Shown: positions 10,788-19,212 of the stretch, one piece after another | Numbering within the stretch: position 1 is the stretch's first letter | Layout: each line of letters starts with the position of its first letter | The notes under the pieces: model-generated | What the model was told of the DNA's origin: nothing | The model's database searches: none | What the model saw: the letters and a program-made list of their open reading frames with translations, nothing else | Assembly: GCA_008933835.1 (NCBI GenBank) | Contig: WBUG01000003.1 | Location: 62,001-126,000, forward strand | From: Bacteroidota bacterium | GTDB taxonomy: Bacteria; Bacteroidota; Ignavibacteria; UBA10030; UBA8401 | Direction of reading: 5' to 3' | DNA length: 64,000 nucleotides | Position numbers and translations under genes: made by a program

Positions 10788-13784
10788 TCATTTGATCACC
10801 GCGATCTTGATGATACGGCTCTGCTCTCCGGACGGACCGGAGGCGGTGACCTGAGCGTAATACACGCCGCTTTGCACGTTCGTGACGTCCCAGGCGACCT
10901 CATTGTCGATGCCGGCGTAACCGGTGCCGCGCAGCTTCTGCACCAGCTCTCCCGCCATGTTCATGATGGTGACGGTGACGGACGCCTCCTTCCCGAGGAA
11001 GTAGCGGATGTTCGTCGTGCCGCGGTAGACGGGATTCGGCCAGTTATAGACCAGCGACGGCGGCAGCAGCTCCTCGCTCCTCGGCGCGGGCGTACCGCTC
11101 TCCGCTGCGAAAGAGGAATGAAACCGGTCGCCGAACGGATTGTTCCACACGCTCCGGGACGTATCGAACAGCGCGCCGCTTTCCCAGACATAGACCGACG
11201 TATCGTTCGACGCGGCGACGAGCTTCGTTCCCCACAGCAGCGGCGTCGATGCGACACCGCCGGTCTGCAGCGGGAACCCGTCCACCATCTTTCCAGATGC
11301 GGTGACGGCACACAGTTGGCCGCTCTGTGTCCCGAAGAGGATGACCGTTTCGCCGGTCGATCTCAGCGCGGTCACCGCCGCGCTCCCGGAGATGTTCCCG
11401 CCGTCCGGCGCCGTCAGCGGGAACCGGTCGAGGATGATGCCTCGGTGGTTCACGGCGTACAGCCGCGGACCCGATGCCGTCAGCACGTCCGCCGTGCGGT
11501 CTCCGTTCACGTCCGCCAGCGCGAAACCAGACACCGGCCCGGCCGGAAGCGCGTGCTGCGTGCCGCCGGCGGGGGCGTTCCCCCCGTTGATGTACACCGC
11601 CGGCGCGTTCGTGATGCCGATGAGACCGGAGCGCTGCGCCGCACCGGCGGCCGTGAAGGGATGCCCACCGGAAGTGCCGACGATGCCAAAGGCGTCAATG
11701 CTGTCAGCCGAATACCACCGCGGTGAAGGACCGGCGATGACGCCGATGACCGGCGCTGCGAAGAGCTGCGTGGAATCGATGTTCCACTGTGCCGGACCGG
11801 TCCGTGCGATCTGCACCCGGCGCCCGGACGCGGTGCCGGTGATGACGAAAGCGGTCGAGACCGACGTGTATGTGGCGGCGGGAGAAGTGACATCGCTTCC
11901 GAACGCGGCGGCGAAGAGCGTGTCCGCATTGCCGTCGGCGTCCGCATCGGTGTTCGCGAAGATGACGACGGACTTTGCGCGGATGCCGACGATGTACTGC
12001 ACGGGAGAGCCGGGGATGCGGAACACCGCCGGCTGGAACCGTCCGCCGAAGCGGGAGAAGAGTCCGGTACCGTTCGCGAAGAACGGCGTGAGGTCCTGCC
12101 GGACCGCGTAGATGGAGTCGCCGGAGGTGTAGACGAGTTCGTCCGCGCCGTCGCCGTCCAGGTCCGCGAGCGTCGGCGCGTCATGGTCGCCGCTCGTCCG
12201 GTTCGTCCGCTTGAGCGTCGCCGACAATCGGACCGCACCGGTGGGCTGATACCGGACCGTCATCCGCGGGGACGACGCGGAGAAATCCTGCAGCAGCACC
12301 GAGGTGCGGGCGCGGGAATTGCTGAGACTGTTCGGCTGACTGACGTTCGAAAACTCGTCGGCGAACACCGGGGAAATGTTCCCGGCGAACCAGTAGTCGA
12401 TGGGCGAGCCGTCTTCACTGCCGGAACCGGCGCTCAGCAGGTCGTACGACATGCCGATATCCTGCGAGCCGTCCGCTTCCTCCACGTCCACCCCGCGGTG
12501 CGCCGGATCGGCGTTCACGCTGTTGGAAGCGAGGGTCCGTTCGATGACCGTTTCGTCGATGTGCCAGATGAGCACGCCGCCGCGATAATCGTTCGCACTA
12601 TTGATGAGTCCCGGCAGGCTCCAGTCCGGTTCATCCACGTCGATGACCGTGCCGTACACCGAATCGATGTTCGTATTGGAGAAGAACTCCTCGTCCCGGG
12701 TGAAGGTGCGCGTGATGACGTTCCCCTTCCAGCGCATCGTGACGGTCTGATGGTCCTGCTTCGCGTCGCGCTGCCGGTTCTCCACCAGGAAGTACTCTTT
12801 GGCGCTCACCGGAACGCGGTAGACGGTGTCCGTTTCCGTGAATCCGACGGCGGGCAATGGGAGTGTTGCGGCGGACGACACGGTCACCGGCGTCACCCAG
12901 CCCAGGTACTGCTTTTCCCATGCGCTCGGTTCGGGGGGACAGATACCGGAGAAGCTGAACATCGCCTGACCGTCCATGAGACCGAACCGGCCGATAGCGG
13001 TGCGTCCGGTGCGCGTATCGAACAGGTCCGGCAAACCGAGATGGCTTCCGATCATGCCGGCCATCAGTCCGTTGATGCCGAGCTTCAGGATGAAGTCCTC
13101 ACCGACGGTGGGGATGGCGCGCACTTCCGTTTCGGGAAGGAGGGCGGAATTCGTGATGAAGGCGCCTCCGGAGACCGGAACGCCCGGATACGACGTCCCC
13201 TTGACGGAGCGGAAACCGTTGATGTTGAAATAGAGGGACGGAATGTCGTACGGCGTCGGATCGTATCCGAGGGTGCCGCGCAGGTCGATGTCCTTCCCCA
13301 CGCCGGCATGGAAGACGATGAACATGTCGTACGAGCCGAACGGGAAACCGGGATGGAGCGAGTCCGCTTTGTGCCACGTTTCCTCGATCATCGCCACCAG
13401 CGGAGCGTTGCCGCTGACCGGTGCATAGTGCTGCATCGCGGCGGGGAGCGTGATCACGGGACCGAGCACCGTTCCGTCGACGTGCAGACGGCCGCCGGAG
13501 ACCTTCCGGAAATAGTTCTGCGCGAAGAGCAGATGGTCCGCGAAGTACGCCGAGTCGTGCGGAGGAGCGTCGATGATCGGCGCCGCCGCCGGTCCGAGGT
13601 CGAAGCGGCCGTCGCCCGACGTCAGCGCGGTGATGTCCGTCTGGAACTGCGCCATGACCGCAAGGATGCGCAGCGTATCGGGTGCCGCCGCTGTCACGGC
13701 GGCGCCGACGCGGAGCGGATGCGAGAAGGGGCCGGCCGCGGCGGCGGACCACACGAAAAGGATGAGCGCGGTGAGTTTCATCAT
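10788..13784 (-). CDS. M6-like pseudopeptidase with FG-GAP repeats and T9SS sorting domain
   Basis: A 998-residue secreted protein. Signal peptide at 1-17. Residues about 35-330 match the fold of M6 (immune inhibitor A-like) peptidases, with YDMFIVFHAGVG at 152-163 and SHLGLPDLFDT at 247-257. The catalytic HExxH that should precede LGLPDLF is replaced by GMIGS (243-247), so the zinc site is lost. FG-GAP-like blades (ADLDGDGADELVY, ADVNGDRTADVL) follow. The last 85 residues form a type A sorting domain beginning NWPNPVYRGTTNIRY and ending IIKIAVIK, so it is cargo for the PorU/PorV machinery encoded just upstream. It was probably a protease that became a binding or structural protein. Confidence 0.86.
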   Translation of the reverse strand: MMKLTALILFVWSAAAAGPFSHPLRVGAAVTAAAPDTLRILAVMAQFQTDITALTSGDGRFDLGPAAAPIIDAPPHDSAYFADHLLFAQNYFRKVSGGRLHVDGTVLGPVITLPAAMQHYAPVSGNAPLVAMIEETWHKADSLHPGFPFGSYDMFIVFHAGVGKDIDLRGTLGYDPTPYDIPSLYFNINGFRSVKGTSYPGVPVSGGAFITNSALLPETEVRAIPTVGEDFILKLGINGLMAGMIGSHLGLPDLFDTRTGRTAIGRFGLMDGQAMFSFSGICPPEPSAWEKQYLGWVTPVTVSSAATLPLPAVGFTETDTVYRVPVSAKEYFLVENRQRDAKQDHQTVTMRWKGNVITRTFTRDEEFFSNTNIDSVYGTVIDVDEPDWSLPGLINSANDYRGGVLIWHIDETVIERTLASNSVNADPAHRGVDVEEADGSQDIGMSYDLLSAGSGSEDGSPIDYWFAGNISPVFADEFSNVSQPNSLSNSRARTSVLLQDFSASSPRMTVRYQPTGAVRLSATLKRTNRTSGDHDAPTLADLDGDGADELVYTSGDSIYAVRQDLTPFFANGTGLFSRFGGRFQPAVFRIPGSPVQYIVGIRAKSVVIFANTDADADGNADTLFAAAFGSDVTSPAATYTSVSTAFVITGTASGRRVQIARTGPAQWNIDSTQLFAAPVIGVIAGPSPRWYSADSIDAFGIVGTSGGHPFTAAGAAQRSGLIGITNAPAVYINGGNAPAGGTQHALPAGPVSGFALADVNGDRTADVLTASGPRLYAVNHRGIILDRFPLTAPDGGNISGSAAVTALRSTGETVILFGTQSGQLCAVTASGKMVDGFPLQTGGVASTPLLWGTKLVAASNDTSVYVWESGALFDTSRSVWNNPFGDRFHSSFAAESGTPAPRSEELLPPSLVYNWPNPVYRGTTNIRYFLGKEASVTVTIMNMAGELVQKLRGTGYAGIDNEVAWDVTNVQSGVYYAQVTASGPSGEQSRIIKIAVIK

Positions 13785-13848: not shown

Positions 13849-14961
13849 TTACAGCACCCCGCCCCAGAGGATGAGGAAGGTGAACCGGAGCGTGTCGGAA
13901 AGAGGATGATTCTCCTCCTTCGCCGAGATGTAGCTGAAGTCGAGACCGTAGATGTCGTACCGCAGTCCCGCGCCGAACGTCATGAAGTTGCGTCCGCCGT
14001 TCGCCGGGTCTTCGAAGAAGTTCCCCCACCGGATGGCCACCTTCTTGTCGTACCAGTACTCGAGGCCGATGGAGGTGGTGGTGAGCTTCAGGTTCCGGTC
14101 GAGCGAATTGTTCGTGAAGCTGGTGATGATGGACTTGGGAAGTTCGTGCGACGCGCCGTTCGGTTCGCGGTAGATGAGGAGCTTCGCGAAATCGACGGAG
14201 ATGGTGAGGCTGTTGAACTGGTCCTTCATCGGGATGATGCCGAAACCGAGGCGCACCTGCGACGGCAGCGGGTCGGCCTGGTCCGCGTCGATATAGGTGA
14301 CCTTCGGTCCGAGGTTGGTCACGCTCAGTCCCACGCTGAAGTGTTCACCGATGTCCTCTTCCACGAAGGGGATGACGAGCGATTTCGGCTTGTAGAGGAT
14401 GCCGAGGTCGAAGCTGAACGTGTTGGCGATGCCCGAGCCCTTCTCCTGTGCCGTGCCGAAGGGAGAGAGCGAACTGTTGATGTAGCGCAGGTTGGTGCCG
14501 AGGCTGAAATCCTCGGTCAGCGGCATGCCGAAACCGACGGTGACCGCGAATTCGAAGCCCTTGAACCGTCCGATCTCGGTCGGATCGGTCTCCGACGTAC
14601 GGATGAACTCGCCGAGGTTCAGATAGGTGACGCTGGCGCCGAGCGTTCCGCCGTACTCCGGCAGTTCCTGTTTGATGTTGAAATAATCGTAGAAGAGGTC
14701 CGACAGACCGAACTGCGGCAGCCAGTTGGCATGCGTGATGCTCACTTCGCCCCCCTTCTGGAAGCCGAGACCGGCGGGATTCCAGAAGATGGCCGATGCG
14801 TCGTCCGCGATGCCGGTCCCCCCTTCGCCCATGCCGCTGGCGCGGGAGTTCGGGGAGATCATCAGGAACGGCACGGCCGAACTGCCGGCTTGGGCGGCCG
14901 CGTTCTGCACCGCCGCACCCAGCGACAGGAGCAGCAACATCAGCATGATGTGGTGTTTCAT
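13849..14961 (-). CDS. porV: T9SS outer-membrane protein PorV (LptO)
   Basis: A 370-residue FadL-like outer-membrane barrel. PorV picks up cargo from the SprA translocon and delivers it to the PorU sortase. Seen: signal peptide (MKHHIMLMLLLLSLGAAVQ...AQA), then the family signature PFLMISPNSRASGMGEGGTG, IADDASAIFWNPAGLGF, followed by repeated amphipathic strands. The start at 14961 has AAGGAG 9 bases upstream; the frame reads further upstream but without a signal peptide. It lies 67 bases after porU in the same direction, the usual pairing. The PorU adjacency supports true PorV over other PorV/PorQ-family members. Confidence 0.93.
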   Translation of the reverse strand: MKHHIMLMLLLLSLGAAVQNAAAQAGSSAVPFLMISPNSRASGMGEGGTGIADDASAIFWNPAGLGFQKGGEVSITHANWLPQFGLSDLFYDYFNIKQELPEYGGTLGASVTYLNLGEFIRTSETDPTEIGRFKGFEFAVTVGFGMPLTEDFSLGTNLRYINSSLSPFGTAQEKGSGIANTFSFDLGILYKPKSLVIPFVEEDIGEHFSVGLSVTNLGPKVTYIDADQADPLPSQVRLGFGIIPMKDQFNSLTISVDFAKLLIYREPNGASHELPKSIITSFTNNSLDRNLKLTTTSIGLEYWYDKKVAIRWGNFFEDPANGGRNFMTFGAGLRYDIYGLDFSYISAKEENHPLSDTLRFTFLILWGGVL

Positions 14962-15028
14962 GGAACGGAACTCCTTGCTAGTGTTCAATGAAATATAGGT
15001 AATAATCTCTTCTCTTCCCAGCCGTGCC

Positions 15029-18000
15029 TCAGCGCACGACCGCCATCCGACCGAGCGCCTCGCTGGTGAACCGTCCATCCGCCGTCCGTGCTGTCACCTT
15101 ATAGAGGTAGATGCCGTTCCCGACTTCATCGCCGTCGCTGTCCCGGCGGTCCCATGGGATGCGCACGAATCGGTCCGTCACTGCGAACCGTTCGATACGG
15201 TGCACGAGACGTCCCGCCACGGTGTAGAGCGCGATGGTGATGTCCACCGGCGCCAGTTGATTGTGCTGGAACGTGAAGACGGTGGAGGTGCGGACCGGGT
15301 TCGGGAAATTATAGACGTTGTGGATGGCGAGGCCGTCGGACGACGCCACGGTGAACACCGCTTCGGCAGTGTTCGAATTGTTGTAGGCGTCCCAGGCACG
15401 CACCTTCACCGTATGGCTTCCCGGCGAGAGGCCGGACAGGGGATACTCCGCCGCACCGGACTGATAACTGTCGGTCTTCCCTTTATAGTACGGCGTCAGG
15501 TCGACGCTCTTCGGAGCGCCGTCGATCCATGCTTCGATGCGGTGCCCGATGGCGCTGCCGGAAGAGTTGATGCCGCTGCTGTCGGTCAGGTCGGCGATGA
15601 GCACGGGCGAATCGCCCACCAGGTCGCCGGAACGGAACGACGGGGAATCGAGATAGATGCGGATGACCGGACCGAGCGAATCGGCCGGAGCGTCATCGTT
15701 CGTCCCCCCCACGATGAAATTGGTGGAGTACCCCGTGCCGTCGGCCGCTGCGTTGGAGAAGTACACCGACAGCCGCCCTTTCTTGTTCTCGTACGAGATG
15801 TCCTTCGGCACGATGAACGACGCGCTCATCCGTCCGTCGACGATGGAGGCCTCCCCTTTGTAGATGACAGCGCCCTGCTGCACGAACGGCACCGACGGGA
15901 TGGTGGTGATGGTCCGGTTCCGTTCGGAATCGAACACCGTCACGAGCGCCGTTCCCTGGAACGCGGTGACGACCGCTCCGGCGGTATCGCGCACGCTGGC
16001 GGAGACGACCACCTTCTCCAGCGCGCTCAGCGTGTCCTGCAGCGCTGCGGAGCGGTGGTTGATGGAGTCGACGGTGAGACGTCCGGACGGTGCGGCCAGT
16101 GTCAGCGTGGGATCTCCGAGCAGGAAGTACTTCTGCTTGTTCTCCAGTCCGGAGGAGACCTGGTTCTTCGTCAACATCAGAGCGTCGCCGAGGGTCATCA
16201 TCGGCGTTCCGCCGAAGAGGTGCGTGTAGAACGACTGGTTGAGCGCCGCGTTCTCGTGCGCGTACACGGCGCGCGTGGCGCTGAGCACGCCGATGGCGCC
16301 GCCGTTCCGGTTCACCATCACCTCTTCGGCGGAGCTCTGTGCGGTCCCTTCATCGAACCGGCCCCAGTCGCAGGTGGCCGCGACGATGAACGTGAGCCGG
16401 TCCGCGTTCGTGAACTGTGTCTTCACGTCTTCAAGCGTGAGAATGGCTTCGTGCGCCCACACCTTCGGATTCCCGTGGCCGGCGTAGTTCAGGATGAGGG
16501 TGCCGCGATTCACCTGCGAGAGCAGGTCCGCCCGCGCTTCGGGGCGGCGCCGGCCCGAGGAGGCGAACGTCAGCGGATAGTCCTCGGTGTACAGGCGCCG
16601 GACCTCATAGGAACGCGGAATGAGTGAGGTGAGCGTCTCGGAATCGTTCGTGTTGAACACTTCGTTCTGGCTGTCGGTGGACCACAGGTCGTCCGCGACC
16701 ACGGTGATGAGGTTCTTCCAATCCCCCCGGTCGGGCGTGGTCTCGTAGGCGATGATGCGGTCCACCAGCACTTTCGCTTCGGCGGCGCTGCGGGGACAGA
16801 GCCGCCCGTGCGCCAGCGATACGGTGTAGGGAGCGTTGGGATCGAGGTATGCGAAGTAATCCTCGAAATTGAATGTGGAGATCTTGCTGTTGGACTCCGT
16901 CGTCTGCTTCGTCGGCACCCACCACGGATCGTCACCGAGGATGTTCTTGTGGTCGAACGTCGCATCGCCGAAGAAGAGGACGTACTTCGGCCGGACGCTC
17001 CATTGGTCGTACGCGTGGCGGAGGAAATCGCGGATGGAGGCGGGGTCCGGATGCCCGGCGCCGAACTCGTTGAAGATGGAATCCACCGACACCACCATGG
17101 TACGGAGCGGTTTCGGAAGCGATTCTTTGTGCACGCGCAGCCGCTGTGCTTCGGAGAGGAAATCGGCGTGCGTGATGATGACGAAGTCGGCCCCTGCCGC
17201 GCCGTGCAGGTCCGACGTACCGATCTTGACCGCCGTCCCGGGCGTCCGGTACGCCGCCGGCGTCCCGGCCCAGTACCGCCGTACCGCACCCGCGGCCGCC
17301 GAATCGGCGAACGAGACGGTCCCCATCACCTGACCGAGGGATGCCGCGAGCCGGCGCTGACGCCGGTGGTCCGTCACGTCGTACACCGTGATGTCGTTGG
17401 AGGGGAAACCGCTCAGGTCGTAGCGGACCACCCCGCCGGTGTCCGGGCCGGTGAAGGAGAGCTGACCGTTGACCGCGGCGAGACGCTGACGGTAGAAGTA
17501 CCGCACCCAGTCGATGTATCCGACCGAGACCGGACTGCCCGACGTGTAGGTGAACTTCAGCATGCTCCGTTCGTCCGTGAGCGACGGAACGGCGGTCACC
17601 GATTGCTGGAGGTTCGCCGCGTAGTTTCCCGAGGCCGAGTTATACTCCCAATCCTCCAGCCTCGGCACGACCGCATTCCCGATCTGCACGCCCGATTCGT
17701 CCAGGCGGAACGTCGATGAGACCAGGGAGCGGGCGTAGAGGTGGTAGTGGTAGCGGACGGACGTACCGGGGATCTGACCGGAAAGCCTGGTGCCGATGAC
17801 GCGCGAGTCGTTGTCGGAGAAGGGAGCGCTCACCCAGTTGAGCCCCGAGTAGTTGAAGTTGACCTTCTCCTCCTTGAAATACGCTTTCCCCAGCGCCGCG
17901 GTCACTCCCGGTGCGGACGGGAGCGGATAGGAGGCTTCGGCCATGACCGCGGCAGGTGCGTTCGCGCCGACGGCGATGAAGTACACGTTCCGCGTGCTGT

Positions 18001-19030
18001 ACGGATTGATGTAATGCTGGAATTCCTTCTGCACCGGGTCATAGTTCCATCCGGAGGCGTTCTGCGCATAGAAGAGGATGTGGTCGTCCGCGTCGAACTT
18101 CCCGTCGCCGTCGTGGTCGACATACCGCACCGCGAGCGGCGTCAGGTCCGCCGCGCGGGGACTCCAGACGTTCTCGGCGAGCGGGCGTCCGTCCGAGCCG
18201 AACACCTTCACATCCATGAGGGAGGAGAGCGACGCTGCGGCGATGCCGAGCGCCGAGAGGTACGATGCATCGATACGGTACATCCCCTCCTCGCTCACCT
18301 CGAACCGGAACCAGGTCCCGGACGACCGGACGGAACTCGACGCCGCCGTTCTCCGCAAAGCCGGACCGCTCCACCGGAGCGCCGTTCCGTAGTTCACCAC
18401 GCCCGCCGCCGCCCATGCATCGTTCCCTGACCGGTCGAACGACGCGGTGCGCGGTCCGAATTCGACCCGCACGACGATGCGCGAGTAGCGGTGCAGTTCC
18501 TTCGCCGCGGCGTTGTAGCGGTACGGTGCGAGGGAGAGATGGGCGGTCAGCCACCCTTTCACCGATGCCGCGGGACCGAGTTCCGCGACCGATGCCGGTC
18601 GCGGTGTCCCGCTCCGGTCGAACGCTGGACGATAGTTCCGCTTCACTGCTCCGGCACCGTCCGCCGGGACGACCGATGCGACCGGCGCCAGATCGAATCC
18701 GCGGAGCGTCTCATAGTCGGCCGACAGCACCGTGAGTGAATGTCCCGTACGGCCCGGCACCGCCAGCGTAATGACGCGGGCCAACAGATCCTCGGTCCCT
18801 CCCTTCCCTTCGTTGACACGCACGGTCCGGAGCACCGTCGGACGTGTGTACACGCTTCCCTCGTCCGAGACCGTTTCGTCCGTCCCGAACTGCGGACGGT
18901 ACTCCAATGTGATGCCGCGGTCGTCCGACGCGAGCACGGTCACGTCGGGGTAGACACGGGACACCTGCGCGGACGCCGTCAGGAAGAGTGTCAGAAGGAA
19001 TGCGATGCTGGACTTCACCATGGGTCTCAT
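15029..19030 (-). CDS. porU: T9SS sortase PorU (C25 gingipain-type cysteine peptidase)
   Basis: A 1333-residue secreted protein that cuts off cargo sorting domains at the cell surface and joins cargo to an anionic lipopolysaccharide. Signal peptide at about 1-21. The C25 domain covers about 610-970. ILNYAGHGNPKVW holds catalytic His852 and IVAATCDWGRFDE holds catalytic Cys887. A long N-terminal beta-rich region precedes it. The C-terminus is a FlgD/Ig-like domain starting VYNFPNPVRTSTVFTFQ. Start ATG at 19030, or the in-frame ATG at 19021 (MVKSSIAFLL), which gives a cleaner signal peptide; no Shine-Dalgarno site decides. The gene starts 6 bases beyond an intrinsic terminator, which implies control by readthrough. 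Confidence 0.93.
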   Translation of the reverse strand: MRPMVKSSIAFLLTLFLTASAQVSRVYPDVTVLASDDRGITLEYRPQFGTDETVSDEGSVYTRPTVLRTVRVNEGKGGTEDLLARVITLAVPGRTGHSLTVLSADYETLRGFDLAPVASVVPADGAGAVKRNYRPAFDRSGTPRPASVAELGPAASVKGWLTAHLSLAPYRYNAAAKELHRYSRIVVRVEFGPRTASFDRSGNDAWAAAGVVNYGTALRWSGPALRRTAASSSVRSSGTWFRFEVSEEGMYRIDASYLSALGIAAASLSSLMDVKVFGSDGRPLAENVWSPRAADLTPLAVRYVDHDGDGKFDADDHILFYAQNASGWNYDPVQKEFQHYINPYSTRNVYFIAVGANAPAAVMAEASYPLPSAPGVTAALGKAYFKEEKVNFNYSGLNWVSAPFSDNDSRVIGTRLSGQIPGTSVRYHYHLYARSLVSSTFRLDESGVQIGNAVVPRLEDWEYNSASGNYAANLQQSVTAVPSLTDERSMLKFTYTSGSPVSVGYIDWVRYFYRQRLAAVNGQLSFTGPDTGGVVRYDLSGFPSNDITVYDVTDHRRQRRLAASLGQVMGTVSFADSAAAGAVRRYWAGTPAAYRTPGTAVKIGTSDLHGAAGADFVIITHADFLSEAQRLRVHKESLPKPLRTMVVSVDSIFNEFGAGHPDPASIRDFLRHAYDQWSVRPKYVLFFGDATFDHKNILGDDPWWVPTKQTTESNSKISTFNFEDYFAYLDPNAPYTVSLAHGRLCPRSAAEAKVLVDRIIAYETTPDRGDWKNLITVVADDLWSTDSQNEVFNTNDSETLTSLIPRSYEVRRLYTEDYPLTFASSGRRRPEARADLLSQVNRGTLILNYAGHGNPKVWAHEAILTLEDVKTQFTNADRLTFIVAATCDWGRFDEGTAQSSAEEVMVNRNGGAIGVLSATRAVYAHENAALNQSFYTHLFGGTPMMTLGDALMLTKNQVSSGLENKQKYFLLGDPTLTLAAPSGRLTVDSINHRSAALQDTLSALEKVVVSASVRDTAGAVVTAFQGTALVTVFDSERNRTITTIPSVPFVQQGAVIYKGEASIVDGRMSASFIVPKDISYENKKGRLSVYFSNAAADGTGYSTNFIVGGTNDDAPADSLGPVIRIYLDSPSFRSGDLVGDSPVLIADLTDSSGINSSGSAIGHRIEAWIDGAPKSVDLTPYYKGKTDSYQSGAAEYPLSGLSPGSHTVKVRAWDAYNNSNTAEAVFTVASSDGLAIHNVYNFPNPVRTSTVFTFQHNQLAPVDITIALYTVAGRLVHRIERFAVTDRFVRIPWDRRDSDGDEVGNGIYLYKVTARTADGRFTSEALGRMAVVR

Positions 19031-19035
19031 AAATG

Positions 19036-19076
19036 AAAAAACCGAACGCCGGGATCCATCACCCAGAACGTTCGGT
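19036..19076 (-). terminator. Intrinsic terminator just before porU
   Basis: ACCGAACG and CGTTCGGT pair, with an inner CTGGG/CCCGG (one G-U pair), then six T on the minus strand. The T-run ends 6 bases before the porU ATG, so transcription from the upstream promoter must read through to express the T9SS cluster. Confidence 0.85.
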
Positions 19077-19177
19077 ACATGAAAAGAGCGACCGTGATGC
19101 GTTAAAGGTGACTGTCGGAACCGCAGTGCAACGAACCTTTAACAAAATCCTATACTGGTCGCTCCTTGAATAATCGT
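19036..19177 (-). ncRNA. Structured leader or small RNA upstream of porU
   Basis: Downstream of a near-consensus minus-strand promoter, about 140 bases fold into nested stems. P1 pairs 19157-19164 with 19086-19093 (GAGCGACC/GGTCGCTC). P2 pairs 19135-19143 with 19101-19109 (GTTAAAGGT/ACCTTTAAC). P3 lies in 19111-19127 (ACTG.CGG/CCG.CAGT). A terminator hairpin at 19041-19076 with six T ends the RNA. All pairs are exact. No ORF with a start signal lies inside. It could be a riboswitch or attenuator governing the porU operon, or a free small RNA. I do not recognise the family. Confidence 0.62.
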
Positions 19178-19183
19178 TGAGTA

Positions 19184-19212
19184 AATATAGAGAAGAGGTC
19201 CACGATTGTCAA
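19184..19212 (-). promoter_or_regulatory. Sigma70 promoter for the porU leader RNA
   Basis: On the minus strand TTGACA, exactly 17 bases and TATATT. The predicted start is near 19177, 13 bases before the first paired stem of the leader RNA. Confidence 0.82.

Follow-up and report, generated by a model that had tools for sequence, protein, structure and literature searches.

A structured leader lies directly upstream of porU

The window, i.e., the whole stretch of 64,000 nucleotides analyzed here, carries on its minus strand a run of three genes related to type IX secretion (T9SS). Based on domain matches, the first encodes the T9SS sortase PorU (15029 to 19030; Peptidase_C25 plus propeptide), the second encodes PorV (13849 to 15078; PF19572, E = 5.5e-30), and the third encodes a large protein with a T9SS C-terminal sorting domain (10788 to 13784). 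The gene divergent from the porU leader encodes an M61 peptidase. The third-gene protein is 30% identical to the product of the gene that follows porV in a Calditrichota contig. Since porV precedes a gene for a large sorting-domain protein in both the window and Calditrichota, it is plausible that the leader described below was inherited vertically together with the operon.

The original prediction had placed a near-consensus promoter, a folded RNA, and a terminator ahead of porU, and all three were confirmed at this location on the minus strand. The sigma70-like promoter (TTGACA-17-TATATT, 19184 to 19212) matches 11 of 12 consensus bases with a spacer of 17 and is the only promoter-like match between positions 18900 and 19400, where shuffled sequences would be expected to yield 0.3. 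The predicted fold of the leader (-51.2 kcal/mol) was more stable than that of 200/200 dinucleotide shuffles (z = -3.95). Its outer helix, P1, pairs AAGGAGCGACC (19157 to 19167) with GGUCGCUCUUUU (19094 to 19083), which ends in a T-run that is retained within the window's family. The inner helix, P2 (GUUAAAGGU/ACCUUUAAC), pairs 19143 to 19135 with 19109 to 19101. We refer to the near-invariant 5' strand of P2 as strand A (UUGUUAAAGGUU, 19134 to 19145) and to its 3' strand as strand B (ACCUUUAAC, 19101 to 19109); they flank a variable apical segment (19110 to 19133) containing a small stem. P1, P2, and this small stem account for the three nested stems described previously, although the third is not conserved: the apical segment ranges from 27 to 86 nt between genomes and has no conserved sequence.

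The hairpin is followed by an intrinsic terminator (ACCGAACG..CGUUCGGU plus T6, 19036 to 19076), the 5' arm and loop of which contain a third strand, C (CGUUcuGGGUGAU, 19058 to 19070). A generic terminator scan on its own did not rise above chance (1 found versus 0.6 expected); the window terminator is convincing because it is conserved, as its CCGAAYGU..UUCGG-Tn arrangement recurs throughout the order. Five bases separate the end of the T-run (19036) from the porU ATG, which starts at 19030, so there would be no room for an independent promoter downstream of the terminator, and the original prediction is not countered on this point. An intrinsic terminator is situated between the promoter and the first gene, as in a transcription attenuator.

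The leader recurs upstream of porU and porV in several phyla

A DNA search of 100 genomes identified the segment in seven genomes besides its own, all from the same family, and in each of these relatives the match sits between a similar promoter and the porU start. These eight sequences were used to build a covariance model, which matched 18/22 genomes of the family (best E value per genome, 3e-25 to 6e-9), with one strong copy per matched genome; only one copy was found in the window's own genome, and a weaker second copy was detected only in G005. In further families of the order, the model produced weaker matches that were laid out in the same way. porU was detected in 97/98 genomes of the order, and 60 porU upstream regions were collected across it. 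The element was found upstream of porU in nearly all of the genomes examined, which span six families, with a shared layout consisting of a promoter, GGA(G), usually UAUMG, UUGUUAAAGGUU, a variable apical segment, CCUUU.., CCGAAYGU..UUCGG followed by a T-run, and porU. The promoter, A, B, terminator, and porU start recurred in the 68 genomes of the order that could be parsed automatically; several more could be recognized on visual inspection, and usable upstream sequence was lacking for a few. A promoter of the sigma70 type precedes 89/97 homologous elements.

Elsewhere in the class, the leader was present in four families (f12, f17, f9, and f20), whereas in f7, f13, and f22 there was no leader and porU lies closely behind another gene; it was not recognized in the remaining families of the class examined. 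Pattern matches in other class members (L146 to L150) lacked the architecture and were discarded as chance.

Scanning a contig collection for the pattern promoter plus GGAG plus A yielded 36 loci, many of them in Ignavibacteria-like or Bacteroidetes/Chlorobi-group metagenome-assembled genomes with porU downstream. L201 to L203 and about a dozen contig loci lacked the architecture and were likewise set aside as chance matches. Three Calditrichota loci and one Marinimicrobia locus were among the 36, and a PorV gene (PF19572) is directly downstream in all four. porV was found in 37/40 genomes of the Calditrichota phylum, and the leader was upstream of it at 29/30 of the loci read, with PF19572 confirmed in three. 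Judging from these sequences, the element occurs in no fewer than three bacterial phyla.

Conservation centers on the 5' strand of the hairpin

The original prediction proposed that covariation should be sought among relatives, and both helices were assessed in alignments. Among 75 distinct sequences in which 85% of cells were paired, P2 (A:B) contained five pairs in which both partners had changed; its covariation score was matched by 1/500 shuffles, and slid versions scored far lower. Within the window's family, four P1 pairs exhibited double changes among eight sequences. Compensatory changes thus occur in both helices, and the prediction does not fail for want of covariation.

The conserved part of the element is its 5' strand, GGAG-N-UAUMG-N-UUGUUAAAGGUU. 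GGAG was found upstream of A in 68/97 elements, relative to 6.2 expected, and was absent in 29/97, while UAU[AC] was located within 18 nt before A in 80/97 elements, relative to 11.6 expected. The conservation of strand A exceeds that of B and of the apical part, suggesting recognition of A, or of the 5' strand in its entirety, by some factor. In contrast, no internal-loop, junction, or apical aptamer was conserved across the families compared. The internal loops of 13 and 7 bases, which had been put forward as ligand or protein sites, are not conserved as such, and their proposed role as ligand sites finds no support here; the linear, conserved 5' strand bears more resemblance to a site recognized by a protein or other macromolecule.

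Strand B can pair with either strand A or the terminator

The switching path, which did not appear obvious in the original analysis, can now be described: strand B (CCUUUAAC) has two alternative partners, namely A, within P2, and the terminator 5' arm/loop (C), and its complementarity to C often extends to bases 5' of B. In the window, the predicted antiterminator partner of C is 19112 to 19100, with a duplex energy of -13.9 kcal/mol. The pairing takes different forms in different genomes: CCUUUAACA with UGUUGAAGG in f2, CCUUUAACGU with ACGUUAAAGG in G005, GACAAGC..UUUUUCA with UGAGAAA..GCUUGUC in f6, GACUACCUUU with AAAGGUAGUC and GUCUGCC with GGCAGAC in Calditrichota, and ACCUUGUA with UACAAGGU in Marinimicrobia. 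In G014, A, B, and C differ jointly from those of other genomes.

Across the order, B:C duplexes formed within the same leader had a mean energy of -14.5 kcal/mol, compared to -10.6 kcal/mol for permuted partners, and 0/5000 permutations gave a mean as low; relative to dinucleotide-shuffled C, the mean z score was -2.8, although it was only -1.5 in the window element. When permutations were restricted to single families, the signal persisted in f1 (0/5000), f3 (6/5000), and f6 (0/5000) but was absent in f5, and Calditrichota alone gave 0/5000. Control segments from the apical part, or from the sequence preceding the hairpin, gave no permutation signal. A downstream control segment had a small excess (65/5000), which gauges the effect of relatedness alone, since the permutation tests leave some relatedness in. 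Taken together, these comparisons indicate that the B:C pairing is genome specific and coevolving. The swap and shuffle tests, which were not significant in family f5, thus point to a selected alternative pairing that excludes the terminator. In Calditrichota, C is located mostly within the terminator loop, and the pairing there could also be a loop pseudoknot, which may or may not affect the terminator.

A proposed three-strand attenuation model for porU-porV expression

The reading that we consider quite probable is that the window segment forms the leader at the 5' end of the porU-porV mRNA, where it functions as a three-strand transcription attenuator. The attenuator architecture is well supported; for its polarity and the factor involved, we infer the following scheme. 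When A:B and P1 are closed, the terminator before porU would fold, and transcription would stop, giving an RNA of ~140 nt. If the 5' strand (GGAG..UAUMG..A) were instead occupied or held open, B would be free to pair with C; provided that B:C formed before the terminator 3' arm existed, RNA polymerase would continue into porU-porV. The 5' strand would presumably be recognized by a trans-acting factor, which may be a protein, an RNA polymerase-associated factor, or the ribosome.

Simulated growth of the window transcript was consistent with this scheme, as P2 and P1 formed before C emerged and the terminator formed thereafter, an order that suggests that the default state is OFF. When A alone was blocked in the window transcript, P1 and the terminator stayed folded, whereas blocking the whole 5' strand caused the B:C structure to form; occupation of the whole 5' strand would therefore be needed. 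In transcripts ending before the terminator 3' arm, the 3' half of the hairpin formed at least six pairs with C in 94/97 elements when the 5' strand was blocked, compared to 22/97 at the same length when it was not. In full-length folding, however, the terminator was the predicted winner in most genomes despite a blocked 5' strand. Given that the terminator usually wins at equilibrium, the switch decision would be kinetic.

Alternative explanations for the leader

The original prediction had left open whether the segment was a riboswitch or attenuator or a small RNA with readthrough into porU. The evidence for an attenuator lies in the conservation, the compensatory changes, and the coevolving B:C pairing. 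That the hairpin instead holds a small-molecule aptamer, with a metabolite stabilizing A:B or B:C, seems unlikely to us: the arrangement of leader, expression platform, and terminator would fit, but the internal-loop, junction, and apical sequences vary across families along with the apical length, and the downstream genes serve T9SS attachment rather than a metabolic pathway. Moreover, there was no Rfam match to the element at the gathering score, and a search of the window, its leader region at E values up to 10, and eight relatives returned only one 13.8-bit match at chance level; the T-box covariance model likewise gave no match at the gathering score in the window or its relatives. A small RNA gene with its own terminator, from which porU would be transcribed by constitutive readthrough and without switching, is possible in that a promoter, a stable fold, and a terminator would yield a discrete RNA of ~140 nt. 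We nevertheless doubt this explanation, since it does not explain why the hairpin 3' strand and the terminator arm coevolve, and the position ahead of porU/porV recurs.

The remaining alternatives concern what acts on the leader. If GGAG were a Shine-Dalgarno sequence, a 30S subunit or ribosome could cover the 5' strand, and such a trigger is compatible with the approximately ribosome-sized stretch that must be blocked and with the finding that GGAG often lies 13 to 18 nt upstream of A. By inspection, however, no conserved start codon or frame through UAUMG-A was apparent in the leaders (near-cognate starts aside), and GGAG is paired in P1 in many members and missing in the 29 noted above, making a ribosome trigger improbable. 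It also appears quite improbable that a NusG paralog (LoaP/UpxY/RfaH-like), recruited by the 5' strand or hairpin, modifies RNA polymerase and that B:C is secondary. Such processive antitermination would suit a terminator standing ahead of a long operon, and a related element (L200, described below) precedes a polysaccharide operon; polysaccharide operons are typical targets of these factors. In opposition to this, the coevolving B:C pairing is not predicted by such a mechanism, and while other carriers have two NusG-domain genes, G000, G009, G045, and G067 show one each, and a NusG paralog is therefore dispensable. Lastly, when viewed as DNA, the A and B arms are close to palindromic and might be bound by a DNA-binding repressor. 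We regard such an operator as very unlikely, given that the spacing of the arms varies over the full apical range, the 3' arm drifts through G-U and compensatory changes, and C coevolves with B. We also considered an RNA acting in trans on strand A; apart from the element itself, the genome contains two single-mismatch sites to AACCTTTAACAA, which is no excess over the reversed control, and this candidate was rejected.

Relationship to known regulatory systems

As an attenuator of porU-porV, the leader resembles protein-dependent transcription attenuators, such as TRAP/trp, PyrR/pyr, LicT-BglG RAT, and L10(L12)4/rplJL (e.g., PMC4027176 and PMC4538822), in that mutually exclusive hairpins determine whether an intrinsic terminator forms before the operon under control. 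It differs from them in sequence, structure, and target genes, as well as in its A/B/C three-strand exchange and conserved linear 5' strand, and we regard it as a new attenuator family within a known kind. It shares the exchange of strands between antiterminator and terminator with riboswitch expression platforms but has no conserved aptamer core that we could find and no metabolic target genes. Like systems of the LoaP/UpxY/RfaH type (PMC12691694 and PMC7819879), it places a leader terminator before a long envelope or surface operon, yet several of its carriers have a single NusG gene and its own terminator arm is complementary to the leader hairpin. In Porphyromonas gingivalis, T9SS genes are controlled by the PorX/PorY two-component system and the ECF sigma factor SigP (PMC4800418 and PMC8265659), which also target T9SS gene expression but act at promoters rather than via RNA. 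In agreement with the original statement that no RNA regulator of T9SS had been described, we found none in the literature searched, the partial coverage of which makes this weak evidence of absence.

If the conserved porU/porV attenuator is real, it would be the first RNA-level control point for T9SS as far as we found and would define a new RNA family, and strand A would provide a concrete handle for isolating the regulator in lineages with little genetics. More tentatively, and with rather less than even confidence, we suggest that the leaders represent an ancient attenuator class that is dedicated to T9SS attachment-complex genes (porU/porV) and occurs in three or more phyla. A conserved factor acting in trans would recognize the linear motif GGAG..UAUMG..UUGUUAAAGG, thereby tying the capacity for anchoring surface proteins to a cellular signal, and polysaccharide operons might share this control.

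Divergent leaders

Several leaders depart from the common layout. L200 (G468), from the phylum group of the Marinimicrobia contig, has a promoter, GGAG-UAUCG-UUUGUUAAAGGUU, B, and a CCGAAUG..CAUUCGG terminator but precedes a polysaccharide operon (by inspection, sugar-phosphate transferase and UDP-GlcNAc epimerase-like genes) rather than por genes. The second copy in G005 (L027:1501-1636) is a degenerate hairpin with its own promoter and no clear terminator; a thioredoxin/TlpA-like open reading frame lies ~400 nt downstream, in place of porU. A and B are present in L025 (G002) and L021 (G007), where the terminator is lost or unrecognizable. In L171 (G131, f20), the P1 3' strand GCAACCGUCC continues straight into a T-run, such that the A:B hairpin itself seems to act as the terminator. 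A promoter-proximal motif, (C)UA(U)MGAG..UUGCUAC, occurs upstream of porU in L169, L175, L181, and L182 (f27, f24, f29, and f31) without an A/B hairpin or terminator and is perhaps the recognized core minus the switch.

Some f5 members (L084, L078, L098, and L108) have the sequence GGCGGU(A/G)(A/G)CUCC in the P1 3' strand, which is complementary to GCCGCC at the terminator base; its resemblance to the E. coli ops element, over the initial nine bases of the latter, is presumably due to chance. In f1 and in some members of f5, RNA polymerase may pause at the T-run that follows P1. In a Calditrichota subgroup (L228 to L234), A is UUGUUAAGGA and B is UCCUUAACAA, and the P1 3' strand (GCACCC) seems to be the switching strand. 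Duplex energies were computed for L228 to L230, and by eye, the subgroup triplet GGGUGC / GCACCC / GGGUG is replaced by GGAUGC / GCAUCC / GGAUC in L233.
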